In this document: piece by piece, positions 1-54,224 of the stretch
Layout: each line of letters begins with the position of its first letter
Position numbering within the stretch: position 1 is the stretch's first letter
The notes under the pieces: model-generated
Told to the model about the DNA's origin: nothing
Database searches by the model: none
The model's input: the letters and a program-made list of their open reading frames with translations, nothing else
Assembly: GCF_000348725.1 (NCBI RefSeq)
Contig: NC_020813.1
Span: 1,464,248-1,528,247 of the forward strand
Reading direction: 5' to 3'
DNA from: Pseudobdellovibrio exovorus JSS
Lineage (GTDB): Bacteria; Bdellovibrionota; Bdellovibrionia; Bdellovibrionales; Bdellovibrionaceae
Length of the DNA: 64,000 nucleotides
Position numbers and translations under genes: made by a program

Positions 1-581
1 GCTTTAACTGATGAAATAACTCCTGACGCATCTTCTTTCTTTGATCTAAACGTCTTACCATATTTCTCAAAAGCTCTCTTCGCTAAAACACCCTTAGCTG
101 GCATCTCAGCTATCCGAAAACCTAAGATAAACCTTGTTTTATCCTCTACAGCCAAGCTGATCGATAGAGGTTTAAACTTTGTGGATTCAAAGGTTTCCAT
201 ATCATCGAATACGATCGTATCGATTGGTTTGTTTGGAATGTGGCTATTTTGCCTTAGATTCCACAAAGCCCACTGTCCAAGGAACATGAACTTACGAACG
301 ATGGTCTTTCTATTGGTTTTTAGAAGCCTTGCCATTCTTCTTTGAGAAACTCCACTTACAAGGTGTTCAAATACTGGAAAGTTCAGATGAGGTTTCTTTT
401 GATACTTACAGGGATGGTAAGTGTTATCTGAGAAGTTCTTATTACAGATAAGGCATTTATACCTTTGAATCCATGTTTGATCATGTTGACGGAGATATTT
501 CCCTGCAAGAATAAATCGTAAAGGACGAGGTTCGGATGGGGTTTGATTGGAGTTTAATTTAAAACATCGTGGACACTGCAT
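1..581 (-). CDS. IS1-like transposase, C-terminal part cut off by window edge
   Basis: The minus strand is open from an ATG at 579-581 to the window edge (193 codons). The product begins with a zinc ribbon (CPRC at residues 3-6, then CLIC about 40 residues later). An HTH follows with the pattern GVSQRRMARLLKTNRKTIVRKF (split here only for description: GVSQRR, then KTIVRKF). Next comes FDDMETFE, a likely first catalytic acidic residue, and then EMPAKGVLAKR. These blocks align in the same order with the complete transposase at 52561-53454, so the two are diverged members of one family. The family call IS1-like rests on the C-terminus of the complete copy, which is outside the window here. No stop or frameshift is seen in the visible part. 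Confidence 0.85.
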   Translation of the reverse strand, partial: MQCPRCFKLNSNQTPSEPRPLRFILAGKYLRQHDQTWIQRYKCLICNKNFSDNTYHPCKYQKKPHLNFPVFEHLVSGVSQRRMARLLKTNRKTIVRKFMFLGQWALWNLRQNSHIPNKPIDTIVFDDMETFESTKFKPLSISLAVEDKTRFILGFRIAEMPAKGVLAKRAFEKYGKTFRSKKEDASGVISSVK

Positions 582-608
582 GGCCTCAAATAGCGCAACT
601 TTGAGGCC
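582..608 (-). promoter_or_regulatory. Hairpin abutting the transposase start codon (element 1)
   Basis: On the minus strand GGCCTCAAA and TTTGAGGCC form a perfect 9-bp inverted repeat with a 9-nt loop. The 3' arm ends directly at the ATG (579-581). No Shine-Dalgarno sequence separates stem and start. In RNA the stem would hide the initiation region, as in transposon mRNAs protected from read-through expression. That role is inferred. The second element has the same layout with a different stem sequence. Confidence 0.7.
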
Positions 609-620
609 AAATGCATCTTA

Positions 621-631
621 AGGGGCCAGTT
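621..631. repeat. Terminal inverted repeat of IS1-like element 1
   Basis: AGGGGCCAGTT differs at one position from AGGGGGCAGTT, the 11-bp terminal repeat of the complete element at 52563-53533. It lies about 40 bp upstream of the transposase ATG, as a right end should. The partner end is outside the window, so target duplication cannot be checked. The stop codon of the peptidase gene lies seven bases outside this end. Confidence 0.7.
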
Positions 632-637
632 TAAAAA

Positions 638-50442: not shown

Positions 50443-51243
50443 GTGGCGCACAAAAATAAGCAGAATTATTCTCCATATAAGGCACGTAAAGAAAAGGCTG
50501 GCGTCAGTCTACGGGGGCAAGCTCCGACTTCAAAAAGAGACTTCAAACCTGAACAAGTCTACAGCATCGAAGAAGCCAACGACCGCTTTGCAGATATTTT
50601 TCGCAACCATCAGTTTGAGTGCAGCCACGAAGAACGCCGCAAACTCGCGCACTTTTACCATCTTTTGATGAAAAATCAGGAACATCAAAACTTCACTCGC
50701 CTACTCAAACTACGTGATGTGGCTATCAAACATTTTATAGACTCTCTGATTATTACCGAGATGGTCGACATCAAGTTCCCCTTAATTGATGTCGGTACTG
50801 GCCCAGGCTTTCCCGGAATCCCTTTAAAAATTCGCTATCCTCAAGAAAAAATTCTGCTAGGTGAAGGTGTACAAAAACGTGTTGAGTTTTTAAAGACAGT
50901 GCGCGAGGAATTGCAGCTCGAAAACTTGGATATTATCGGCCGCAATATCAATGAGTACTTCGTTTATCCAGTTCAATCCGTTATCACTCGTGCGGTAGAA
51001 GATATTCCCAATACCCTTCGCAATGTGATGAGCTGCCTACAATGTGGTGGGCATGTCTATTTTATGAAGGGTCCTTCGGTTGATCCTGAAATCAAAATGG
51101 CTGAAGACTTGAAAGAGTTTTATCAACTTGAACAAGATATCGCTTACGATTTAAAGCACACACAGAATCAACGACGTCTTGTCGTCTACCGCAAGATTAA
51201 GAATGCGCCCCTACCTGAAGATCCAGACGAAGAGGTCGAATAA
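50443..51243 (+). CDS. rsmG: 16S rRNA m7G527 methyltransferase RsmG
   Basis: GidB-family methyltransferase: FTRLLKLRDVAIKHFIDSL, SAM-binding LIDVGTGPGFPGIPLKI, and EDIPNTLRNVMSCLQCGGHVYFMKG. It has a basic N-terminal extension of about 45 residues rich in Lys and Arg that most RsmG proteins lack. The start is GTG at 50443 with a GGTTTG-like weak site; the frame in that region has no better choice. The stop overlaps the next start as TAATG. Confidence 0.93.
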   Translation: MAHKNKQNYSPYKARKEKAGVSLRGQAPTSKRDFKPEQVYSIEEANDRFADIFRNHQFECSHEERRKLAHFYHLLMKNQEHQNFTRLLKLRDVAIKHFIDSLIITEMVDIKFPLIDVGTGPGFPGIPLKIRYPQEKILLGEGVQKRVEFLKTVREELQLENLDIIGRNINEYFVYPVQSVITRAVEDIPNTLRNVMSCLQCGGHVYFMKGPSVDPEIKMAEDLKEFYQLEQDIAYDLKHTQNQRRLVVYRKIKNAPLPEDPDEEVE

Positions 51244-52031
51244 TGTCTAAATCCATAGCTAAACCCCTTGCTAAATCTACAGCTACTCAAATTACATCTT
51301 CATCGAATTCTTTATTTCGTATTTGGAAGAGTCTTCTGACTTCAAAGGGTATCAAAGAGCATCGTCAGTTCTTCTTAATGGGCGCAAAACTCATTCAAGA
51401 ATTTCTAGATCAACCAGTTGATGGTTTCCATATCGAATACCTCATTTATGATTCAGAGTGCCCATATGATATCAACTGTAAAAAAACTCAGCTCACAAAA
51501 GAACTTTTTCAAGAGCTTGATGTTTTAGGTACGAAGTCCGCACTGCTTATTCTTTCTTATCATGACTTTATTGAAAAAGATTTTTCTAAAGAGGCTCAAG
51601 GCCTTGAGTTGATTTGCCCCCTAGGTGACCCTCGAAACTTAGGTGCCTTAACACGCTCGGCAACAGGACTTTCTGCCGCTGAAATCATTCTAACAAAAGA
51701 ATCAACTCACCCTTATTTACCACAGGCAATGAAAGCCTCTGCTGGGTCGGCTCTAAAAATGAAGTTCACACGCACCGCTTTAGCTTTGAATGAAATTCCC
51801 TTGGTAGGAGCTAACTACGCACTGGCTTTACATGGAAATAAAATCACAGATATCCAATGGCCCAAGAGTTTACGTCTGTGGGTCGGCGAAGAAGGACCCG
51901 GACTCAGCCTTCAGCACGAACAGAAAAAACAAATTCGCTTCGTGAACATCCCAACACAGGAAGTAGAATCCTTGAATGCCATGGTTTCCACCAGTATTGC
52001 GATCTGGGAATGGAAAAAAGCCCAAAAATAG
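51243..52031 (+). CDS. TrmH/SpoU-family RNA methyltransferase (RlmB-like)
   Basis: SPOUT methylase with an N-terminal L30e-like substrate domain (LLTSKGIKEHRQFFLMGAKLIQEFL region) and motifs ICPLGDPRNLGALTRSA, LWVGEEGPGL and ESLNAMVSTSIAIWEW at the C-terminus. The domain order resembles RlmB/TsnR. It probably methylates a ribose in rRNA or tRNA; the target is unknown. Translationally coupled to rsmG (TAATG). Confidence 0.87.
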   Translation: MSKSIAKPLAKSTATQITSSSNSLFRIWKSLLTSKGIKEHRQFFLMGAKLIQEFLDQPVDGFHIEYLIYDSECPYDINCKKTQLTKELFQELDVLGTKSALLILSYHDFIEKDFSKEAQGLELICPLGDPRNLGALTRSATGLSAAEIILTKESTHPYLPQAMKASAGSALKMKFTRTALALNEIPLVGANYALALHGNKITDIQWPKSLRLWVGEEGPGLSLQHEQKKQIRFVNIPTQEVESLNAMVSTSIAIWEWKKAQK

Positions 52032-52039
52032 AAGCTGAT

Positions 52040-52189
52040 TTATCGTCTAGAAATGGGTGCGGACTCAACGTAGCCCAAGACCACTTCTTTTTTGGCATCC
52101 GATCGAGGTTGCGCCAGAATATTTCCAATTAGAAATGCTAAGCCAAAGACAACCGCTAGCCCACTTCCAATAATAATTCTGTTACGCAT
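52040..52189 (-). CDS. Small membrane or exported protein, 49 residues
   Basis: A short frame with an ATG at 52187-52189 and a GGAGAT ribosome site five bases upstream. Residues 5-26 are strongly hydrophobic (IIIGSGLAVVFGLAFLIGNI), followed by a polar tail with VLGYVESAPISRR. It could be a single-pass small protein or a short exported peptide. No family is recognised. The stop is only 8 bp from the end of the RNA methylase gene, so the two converge. Confidence 0.6.
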   Translation of the reverse strand: MRNRIIIGSGLAVVFGLAFLIGNILAQPRSDAKKEVVLGYVESAPISRR

Positions 52190-52290
52190 ACATCTCCTTT
52201 TTTGCACTCCAATTGCACTTAATAATCATTTATTGTAATCGGTTTTCTTACTGTTCACTCATAAAGTACGTACTCATAGACAAGATGTAG

Positions 52291-52539
52291 ATGCGTGATG
52301 ATCCGAGTTCTGAACTTCATTATCAGCCTCATTACAAAATCAGCAGTGAATGCTTACCATGTAACTCGGCTATAATATCTCAACTATAAAACTTATCGGC
52401 CGACCAAAAAAAGACTAGAGTCCTAGCGCCGCAAATAAAAAAAATATCCAATGAAGATATTGAATCAGACGAACTTCTAGACACCCCTATTGGGTGGGTG
52501 TCTCAGATGAACTCAAATTTAAACCTAAGAAAAAAATAA
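52291..52539 (+). pseudogene. Possible relic reading frame with one internal stop
   Basis: From an ATG at 52291 the frame reads 32 codons (RDDPSSELHYQPHYKISSE, then ECLPCNSAIISQL) to TAA at 52387, and continues 49 codons in the same frame (SADQKKTRVLAPQIKKISNEDIE, then LDTPIGWVSQM) to TAA at 52537. Composition looks coding rather than random, so one gene broken by a nonsense change is possible. No homology is recognised. It ends 20 bp before the IS element. Weak evidence. The remaining interval, 52190-52290, shows nothing. Confidence 0.3.
52479..52503. repeat. 8-bp inverted repeat in the interval before the IS element
   Basis: AGACACCC and GGGTGTCT pair around a 9-nt loop. No T run follows on either strand, so it is not an intrinsic terminator of the usual kind. 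It lies inside the relic frame. Confidence 0.35.
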
Positions 52540-52560
52540 TTTTGTTAATGGTTTTTAACA

Positions 52561-53454
52561 TCAACTGCCCCCTCTAGCTGTTGCAAGTCTGCGGTTATGC
52601 TCAAGAGCATAAAGCGCAATATGCTTCTCTAATTGATCTGGCTTCTTTGTCGTACACCAAGTTTTTCTAAACAGCCTATTAATATGAGCCCGCAACATGG
52701 CACAGGTGTGATTTAAACTAAATATAGGATCCCATACCTGCTTCTTTAACTCCCCCTGACCGGTAATAGCTCCTCTTCCACCCAAAACCACCTCATATCT
52801 GGCTTTAGGAAAATATCTTTTCACATCACTTCTATAATGAGGATTTGAATCTGAACGAATAACCGCTGTCGACGAGATTAACCCTTTCACTTCATTAAAT
52901 AGATCCCTCCTTGCCTTAGCTCTGTCATCTACTCGATATCCATACTTTTTCCGAGACGAAGCTGCCAATAGGCCCTTAGCTGGCATCGACGCCACTCGAA
53001 ACCCTAAAATACGCCTACTTTTAAACTCTACCATTAACGTTACAGAAAGAGGTTTGAGCTTTGTGTGTTCAAAGGTTTCAAGGTCATCGAACTCTACTTC
53101 TTGGCATTTGGGTAACTTCCTGTTCCACTCTTTTAGTTTGTCTAAAGCCAAGTCCGATCCTTTTCTGAATTTACGGACTATAGTTTTTGGGTTGAGTTTT
53201 AAGATGCGAGCAGCTTCTCTTTGACTGACTCCACCGGTTAACAGGTCGCAGACAGATTTATTAAACTGCCGTTTCTTTTGAAATTTCAGTGGGCTAGTAG
53301 ACGCAGCCGAGAATGTCTTGCGGCAGTTAGAACACCAGTATCTGGTGAGGTGCTGACCATCGGAAGATCGGTAGTACTTACCCCAGCGACGGATGGTCCG
53401 ATAACCGGAGGAAGAGGTTCTTGTAGTTTGACAATAAGGACAGATGAGTTTCAT
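52561..53454 (-). CDS. IS1-like transposase
   Basis: 297 residues. N-terminal zinc ribbon (CPYCQTT at 4-10, WCSNCRKTF about 41-49), HTH GVSQREAARILKLNPKTIV, first acidic site FDDLETFE (about 122-129), SDSNPHY as second acidic site, and a C-terminus of LNHTCAMLRAHINRLFRKTWC then EKHIALYALEHNRRLA. The RL.RKT.C pattern is the one seen in IS1 transposases, so I call the family IS1-like, tentatively. The product is not frameshifted as IS1 is. Its last codons are inside the terminal repeat and the stop depends on flanking DNA. No divergent passenger gene. Confidence 0.85.
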   Translation of the reverse strand: MKLICPYCQTTRTSSSGYRTIRRWGKYYRSSDGQHLTRYWCSNCRKTFSAASTSPLKFQKKRQFNKSVCDLLTGGVSQREAARILKLNPKTIVRKFRKGSDLALDKLKEWNRKLPKCQEVEFDDLETFEHTKLKPLSVTLMVEFKSRRILGFRVASMPAKGLLAASSRKKYGYRVDDRAKARRDLFNEVKGLISSTAVIRSDSNPHYRSDVKRYFPKARYEVVLGGRGAITGQGELKKQVWDPIFSLNHTCAMLRAHINRLFRKTWCTTKKPDQLEKHIALYALEHNRRLATARGGS

Positions 53455-53533
53455 GGCTTGCTAGTAGTGCTAGGTTCAAGCCATATGAATAGAACTTGCT
53501 GATTATTGAAGACAACAGAGTAAGGGGGCAGTT
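52563..53533. mobile_element. IS1-like insertion sequence with 11-bp terminal repeats
   Basis: AACTGCCCCCT (52563-52573) and AGGGGGCAGTT (53523-53533) are perfect inverted terminal repeats of a 971-bp element with one transposase. Flanks (TTAACATC and ACGAGCGG) show no target duplication of up to 8 bp. The stop codon of the flanking glycosyltransferase is made of one host T plus AA of the right end, and the transposase stop is made of the last T of the left end plus host GA. The element ends at both genes, so insertion by target joining is well supported. A related end occurs at 621-631. Confidence 0.8.
53455..53482 (-). promoter_or_regulatory. Hairpin abutting the transposase start codon (element 2)
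   Basis: On the minus strand GGCTTG pairs with CAAGCC and, inside it, CTAG with CTAG around a 5-nt loop, with a 3-nt bulge. The outer arm ends directly at the ATG (53452-53454), as in element 1. The stem sequence differs from that of element 1, so the structure rather than the sequence appears kept. A role in shielding initiation is inferred. Confidence 0.65.
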
Positions 53534-54224
53534 ACGAGCGGATCAGCCACACTTTATAGAATGCTTCCAACACAATTTTCAAAGACATCTTGCTTTGTCC
53601 TACTCGTCTATCTTCAAAAACGATTGGCAATTCCTGAACTTTATAACCTGCACGTTGAGCTTTGTACTTTAATTCAATTTGGAAACTATAACCATTAGAG
53701 CGGATAGAATCTAAATTAATATCGCGCAGGACTTGAGCCCGCCATCCATTAAAACCGCCTGTCCAATCTTGCGTGGGATAGCCCAAAATAAGACGCGAAT
53801 ACAAACCACCACCACGAGAAATCAGCTTGCGAATAAAGCCCCAGTTCAATGTAGCTCCACCTTCTACGTATCTTGAGCCCACGACAACGTGTTCTGTATC
53901 TAAAGCCTTTAAAAGCTTCACTAGGTCCACAGGACGATGTGAAAAGTCCGCATCCATTTCTACAAGAGCATCATATTTTCTTTCAAGTCCCCATTTAAAG
54001 CCGGCAATATAGGCTTGCCCCAAACCATTTTTTTGATTTCTCAACAAGAGATTTACTCGAGGCTGAGTTGCCGCAAATTCACGTACGAAGTCTGCAGTTT
54101 TATCTGGTGAAGAATCATCGACAACTAAGACGTCAAAGTTGGCATCTAGCTCCATCAAAGTTGGTAGCATGACTTTCATGTTATCTAATTCATTGTATGT
54201 CGGAATAATCACCAGTTTTTTCAT
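53532..54224 (-). CDS. Polyprenol-phosphate glycosyltransferase (DPM1-like)
   Basis: GT-A enzyme of 230 residues with LVIIPTYNELDNM, VVDDSSPDKT, GLGQAYIAGFKWGLE, the metal site EMDADFSHRP, and VGSRYVEGGATLNWG with QDWTGGFNGWRA later, the DPM1 pattern. It lacks the C-terminal membrane helices. It would make polyprenyl-phosphate-mannose or glucose. The last codons (VWLIRS) end inside the IS repeat, so a few native residues may be lost. It is the final gene of the mevalonate operon, 14 bases after mvk, which fits a polyprenol user. Confidence 0.9.
   Translation of the reverse strand: MKKLVIIPTYNELDNMKVMLPTLMELDANFDVLVVDDSSPDKTADFVREFAATQPRVNLLLRNQKNGLGQAYIAGFKWGLERKYDALVEMDADFSHRPVDLVKLLKALDTEHVVVGSRYVEGGATLNWGFIRKLISRGGGLYSRLILGYPTQDWTGGFNGWRAQVLRDINLDSIRSNGYSFQIELKYKAQRAGYKVQELPIVFEDRRVGQSKMSLKIVLEAFYKVWLIRS

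Follow-up and report, generated by a model that had tools for sequence, protein, structure and literature searches.

An IS1-like insertion sequence clade of Bdellovibrionota lies at gene 3' ends, chiefly of tight convergent pairs, and is probably placed there at insertion

The stretch of DNA analysed here, referred to as the window, comprises 64,000 nucleotides from the genome of Pseudobdellovibrio exovorus JSS, a single contig of 2,657,893 bp with eight elements of one IS1-like family (ten matches). One of these elements stands beside a family 2 glycosyltransferase gene, which faces the gene of a SpoU-type rRNA methyltransferase, and a second copy, element 1, is cut by the window edge (Table 1). 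The transposase frame closes AGT-TGA, with the T of the stop at 52563, and the glycosyltransferase frame closes TCG-TAA, with the AA of the stop at 53532-53533. The first-pass annotation had read both stop codons at these letters, and there they are.

Table 1. Features of the window element, its neighbours and element 1
Feature	Position	Strand	Remarks
Element 1 (L024), second family copy	1..633	-	cut by window edge; two frames broken
SpoU-type rRNA methyltransferase	51243..52031	+	convergent with glycosyltransferase
Stretch between methyltransferase and element	52032..52560		529 bp
IS1-like insertion sequence	52561..53535	-	two bases per end beyond the core assigned by the family rule
Transposase, 297 aa	52561..53454	-	stop TGA 52561-52563; zinc-ribbon/HTH-like N-terminus, RNase H-like core
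Core AACTG..CAGTT	52563..53533		read in the sequence; starts AACTGCCCCC, finishes GGGGGCAGTT
Inverted end, transposase 3' side	52563..52583		AACTGCCCCCTCTAGCTGTTG
AGA codon	52573..52575	-	TGA/TAA transposase stop at the same place in 9/10 close relatives
Inverted end, transposase 5' side	53513..53533
Family 2 glycosyltransferase, 230 aa	53532..54224	-	stop TAA 53532-53534 at element junction

The glycosyltransferase is of full length, as indicated by 12 orthologues from the genus that end within one residue of it. In a relative that is 83% identical (G050), the stops of the glycosyltransferase and methyltransferase genes overlap as CTAG, and in another (G045) the same two genes overlap as CTAA, in a reading of the sequence by eye. 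The window copy is tight against its neighbours on one side only and has 529 bp on the other. A DNA search of the 13 remaining genomes of the genus gave no match for this stretch, and its reading as a known repeat was unsupported. It holds a 55-aa ORF on the minus strand (52040-52207) and, seen by eye, an inverted repeat GACACCC...GGGTGTC near 52481-52504. Element 1 also stands beside a gene 3' end, as annotated at first, the stop at 638-640 lying 4 bp away. It is 97.7% identical to another copy (L023), and in each of the two the transposase frame is broken near residue 182-195. These copies may be moved by the transposase of another element, or may use an IS1-like frameshift.

The transposase shows a weak but consistent affinity to IS1. 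Against the NCBIfam IS1 profile NF033558 the window protein scored 39.6 bits (E 5e-10), below the curated cut-off of 100 bits, and 16 of the 17 family members scanned matched the same profile at E up to 0.01. The protein is encoded in one frame of 297 aa, in place of the two overlapping frames with a -1 frameshift of classical IS1; single-frame subgroups exist within the IS1 family. Residues D123, D202, E235, C41 and C44 are invariant across 17 aligned sequences and are candidates for the DDE catalytic residues and the N-terminal zinc finger. The predicted structure (mean pLDDT 81) has the ISCth4 transposase and retroviral integrases as its nearest folds, with TM-scores of about 0.3-0.5, so that the model is compatible with an RNase H-like transposase. 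The window protein gave no match to PF00872 (IS256 family) with an E value of 0.1 or lower, and a sequence search for a relative of solved structure returned a chance hit only. Four of the 17 family members matched Pfam TnsD very weakly in their N-terminal part (best E 0.005), which may reflect merely a common zinc-ribbon/HTH type and is no evidence of kinship. Matches to the element family occur in 35 of 66 genomes of the host family and, at E up to 1e-20, in 135 of 368 genomes of the phylum. Among 24 genomes of one genus (G003-G026), 14 had matches to the IS1-like family, and PF01609 transposases (E up to 1e-10) were absent from all 24.

The borders of the elements were derived from the family as a whole. 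Among 74 copies with candidate ends, 12 were removed for weak ends, which left 62. In these, a 9-bp target duplication sits 2 bp beyond AACTG/CAGTT, exactly in 10 copies and with at most one mismatch in 13, compared with 3 of 3782 mismatched flank pairs; a register shifted by one base, or a length of 10 bp, fits about equally well. The dinucleotides directly outside AACTG agree between the two ends in 35/62 copies (shuffled mean 11.4, maximum 24), and the next dinucleotides outward agree in eight copies, only at shuffle level (mean 8.5). The 8-9 bp duplication typical of IS1 is also a property of this family, as seen in 17 of 86 copies of a larger set and in one empty-site comparison: for copy L064, the genome G005 has both flanks joined and the 9 bp present once. 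Since protein and duplication length resemble IS1, but the score lies under the profile cut-off and the two-frame layout is missing, we use the name "IS1-like".

Applied to the window copy, the border rule makes GA and T element bases, and the element at 52561-53535 then holds both stops. The outer dinucleotides of this copy are GT and TC, which differ from those of its nearest relatives, and comparison of the flanks revealed no target duplication; its own edges are therefore uncertain by 2 bp. The first-pass annotation had divided both stop codons between host and element. The letters are as it described, but a host origin of GA and T is doubtful, given that the duplication in relatives begins 2 bp outside the core. 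Nor is the proposed dependence of the transposase end on the target supported: the stop lies within the element in 60 of the 62 located copies (including the window copy, whose stop has its final base right at the border), the exceptions being L066 at +3 and L036 at +52. Among close relatives (60-73% identity), nine of ten have TGA or TAA 12 nt inside the border, where the window copy has AGA and its frame continues to the border TGA. Judged by this alignment of relatives, the run of the transposase to the border reflects the loss of a stop in this copy and does not characterise the family. In L066 of genome G005, the transposase ends on a TAA within its own target duplication, TAAAGATCA; this copy is the clearest instance of the target-supplied transposase stop suggested for the window copy.

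For the position relative to genes, two further copies with short flanks were removed, and ORFs of at least 90 aa were called in the two flanks, each extended by 30 bp into the element, in the 60 copies with both ends and enough flank; the genes counted below are ORF calls, not annotations, and few were compared with orthologues. A gene 3' end faced the element on 101 of 120 sides, and convergent ORFs flanked 44 of the 60 copies. In 35 of 60 the arrangement was tight, with both stops of ORFs of at least 90 aa within -20 to +17 bp of the borders (definition B). After merging of related flanks, 35/47 were convergent and 27/47 tight; flank proteins were joined by single linkage at identities as low as 26% (49 clusters), which over-collapses copies. 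Two other definitions of tightness were used, a strict one (A: stops at -16 to +4, ORFs of at least 100 aa) and one measured from the core (C: stops at -22 to +6), which gives 41 copies. The element ends carry stops and incoming ORFs thus often terminate early, so the informative observations are pairs of long ORFs arriving from opposite sides, and native stops in flanking DNA. Under definition A, 27 of 60 copies were tight, compared with 25 of 6660 random positions, 4 of 1014 AT-rich positions and 6 of 955 YTAR positions. On one side or both, 24/60 copies and 85/6660 random positions had a native stop no more than 9 bp away. Convergent ORFs did not flank the other 16 of 60 copies, and L076 resembles an insertion without a nearby gene 3' end.

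Such sites are rare in the genomes. Tight convergent positions made up 480 of 464,000 sampled (464 kb), or 0.1%, and within the window 2 of 2500 random positions. The preference for gene ends that the first-pass annotation had suggested, and for which it had proposed a map of the family, is thus borne out by that map, and more strongly than had been supposed. It also extends to a hold-out set. From 40 copies fetched from other host families we dropped ten already used, two with weak ends and four with short flanks, which left 24. Thirteen of these were convergent and nine tight, with gene 3' ends on 37 of 48 sides. Our prior prediction of at least 50% tight copies (with failure set at less than 20%) was missed in size, yet the value lies far above 0.1%.

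Taken together, we consider it probable that an IS1-like clade widespread in Bdellovibrionota sits at gene 3' ends, chiefly between tight convergent pairs, and that this placement arises at insertion. The annotation had also offered selection for insertions that spare the host. On that account there would be no special targeting: insertion would be broad with an AT-rich bias, and purifying selection in compact genomes would leave the copies that spare genes and promoters. The duplications are indeed AT-rich (22% GC vs 46% in the flanks), and those neighbouring genes that were examined are intact. However, intergenic positions are rarely tight convergent ends (2/202 in the window), and other IS families in the phylum are placed differently. 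With a method blind to the element ends, 38 of 61 IS1-like copies were convergent, compared with 1 of 16 PF01609 elements from host-family genomes (Fisher 5e-5) and 6 of 25 PF00872 elements from the phylum (Fisher 0.002); 3' ends pointed toward the element on 96/122, 12/32 and 25/50 sides, respectively. These controls are small, mostly from other genera and chosen differently, and five of 21 PF01609 and five of 30 PF00872 loci were dropped. If selection had sorted the copies, young ones should be more scattered. Copies with a duplication or a close sister are not, though the numbers are small: 9/15 with and 35/69 without a duplication are tight (Fisher 0.58), a gene 3' end is in range on at least one side in 15/15 and 64/69, and tightness holds for 12 of the 16 copies that have a sister of 90% identity or more, one sister pair (L063, L065) being the same, shared old site in two species. 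Selection alone therefore fits these data poorly, and we regard it as an unlikely explanation.

Restored target sites indicate how an insertion affects the two genes. Among the 41 tight copies of definition C, 12 keep the 9-bp duplication, and removal of the element and one repeat brought both stops back to the same codon in 12/12 (L063 and L065 are the same site found in two species; L220 is not tight under the hold-out method). The restored sites had 4-nt stop overlaps in 7/12, compared with 9/64 sampled convergent pairs, and gaps of at most 3 bp in 12/12 compared with 17/64. At the L064 site, the sequence is CTAG or CTAA in four of nine relatives read (G005, G012, G024, G017) and CTAT in G021; the alignment is shorter in the other four. 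The left gene of L064 retains its TAA in the duplication, and the TAG of the right gene has become TA plus an A from the element. Completion of a host stop by the element in this way, as TA plus A, is frequent. A second site, that of L020, is empty in G048, where both proteins end at the same residues (168/168, 404/404) and the stops are 25 bp apart. Two further candidates for empty sites were rejected: relatives differ around the L068 site, and at the L069 site G016 retains about 47 bp of the left element end (L166), the remainder being deleted.

Could the transposase simply read a DNA word built of stop codons, for example YTAA..TTAR, that is blurred in a weight matrix by register shifts of 1-2 bases? 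The weak consensus TAA...TTA within the duplication and the seven 4-nt overlaps among the 12 restored sites speak for such a word. Yet the scores of half of the sites do not exceed those of the best 8% of genome positions, and tight convergent ends account for only 0.16% of the positions that reach this level, which leaves this reading somewhat unlikely. A weight matrix of the target as the full explanation was rejected, the consensus being too weak to find such sites. Target hairpins or terminators were sought by folding 17 duplication sites on both strands against mononucleotide shuffles; the z-scores scatter, a few are low (L067, L049) and no common structure emerged.

The remaining 29 tight copies fall into eight that fit a TA duplication and 21 that fit neither 9 bp nor TA. 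Duplication of TA was rejected as a rule for all members of the family and is retained here for some copies, which would consist of exactly AACTG..CAGTT and duplicate TA only, the stops being split between host and element. Keeping a single TA returns both stops to the same codon in those eight of the 41 tight copies, all without a 9-bp duplication, and 11/69 copies have TA directly abutting the core at both ends, against 4.7 in shuffles. The TA beside the core may nevertheless be the terminal dinucleotide of the element itself, and by a rough estimate about a quarter of TA/TA copies are expected to pass by chance. Moreover, 17/86 copies show 9 bp, an empty site agrees with that length, and the window copy has no TA on either side in that register. 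A TA-duplicating subset thus appears improbable.

Insertion commonly duplicates some 9 bp that include or adjoin the stops, in many cases a 4-nt stop overlap YTAR. In the worked case of L064, one gene retains its stop in its copy of the duplication and the first A of the element completes the other stop after TA, leaving both proteins unchanged. The site would be chosen at insertion and not sieved afterwards, and what the transposase or a partner senses would go beyond a short DNA word and might be, for instance, convergent transcription. As a tentative and possible explanation, the transposase or a host partner may find its sites through the condition of the DNA where genes converge (transcription collisions, supercoiling or ribosomes at termination) and not by a sequence word, the element's own termini completing the stops. 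The window copy may have inserted where the stops of the glycosyltransferase and methyltransferase genes overlapped, as they do in G050, with the 529 bp arriving later; such a later arrival would account for its absent duplication.

Should the site be selected at the time of insertion, a single small transposase would locate gene ends genome-wide and harm neither gene. This would explain the persistence of the elements in compact predator genomes, offer a route to inserting DNA at neutral sites, and make the sensing of convergent transcription by a transposase testable. A literature search found no description of insertion sequences at convergent stops; it covered subscription journals thinly, and is weak evidence of novelty.

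Several known elements spare their hosts in a comparable manner. Tn7 inserts by the 3' end of glmS, which stays intact, and is directed to this one gene by TnsD. The family described here likewise inserts beside the end of a gene that remains intact, but does so with one transposase and at many gene pairs. The dif-targeting IS1202 family reportedly also uses a defined harmless site, set by DNA sequence. REP-targeting insertion sequences are reported to insert at a defined type of harmless site, again set by DNA sequence (PMC1525189). The targets of such elements are defined sequences, whereas the sites described here have in common that two gene 3' ends meet, and share only a weak sequence. 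IS1 of E. coli resembles our family in the weak profile match, the 8-9 bp duplications and, for our family putatively, the zinc-finger/HTH N-terminus and the DDE-type core, but has insA/insB with a frameshift, whereas our family has one uninterrupted frame, a score far below the cut-off and copies at gene ends (PMC12428005). The family behaves like a target-specific insertion sequence, and is IS1-like in its protein and duplication length.
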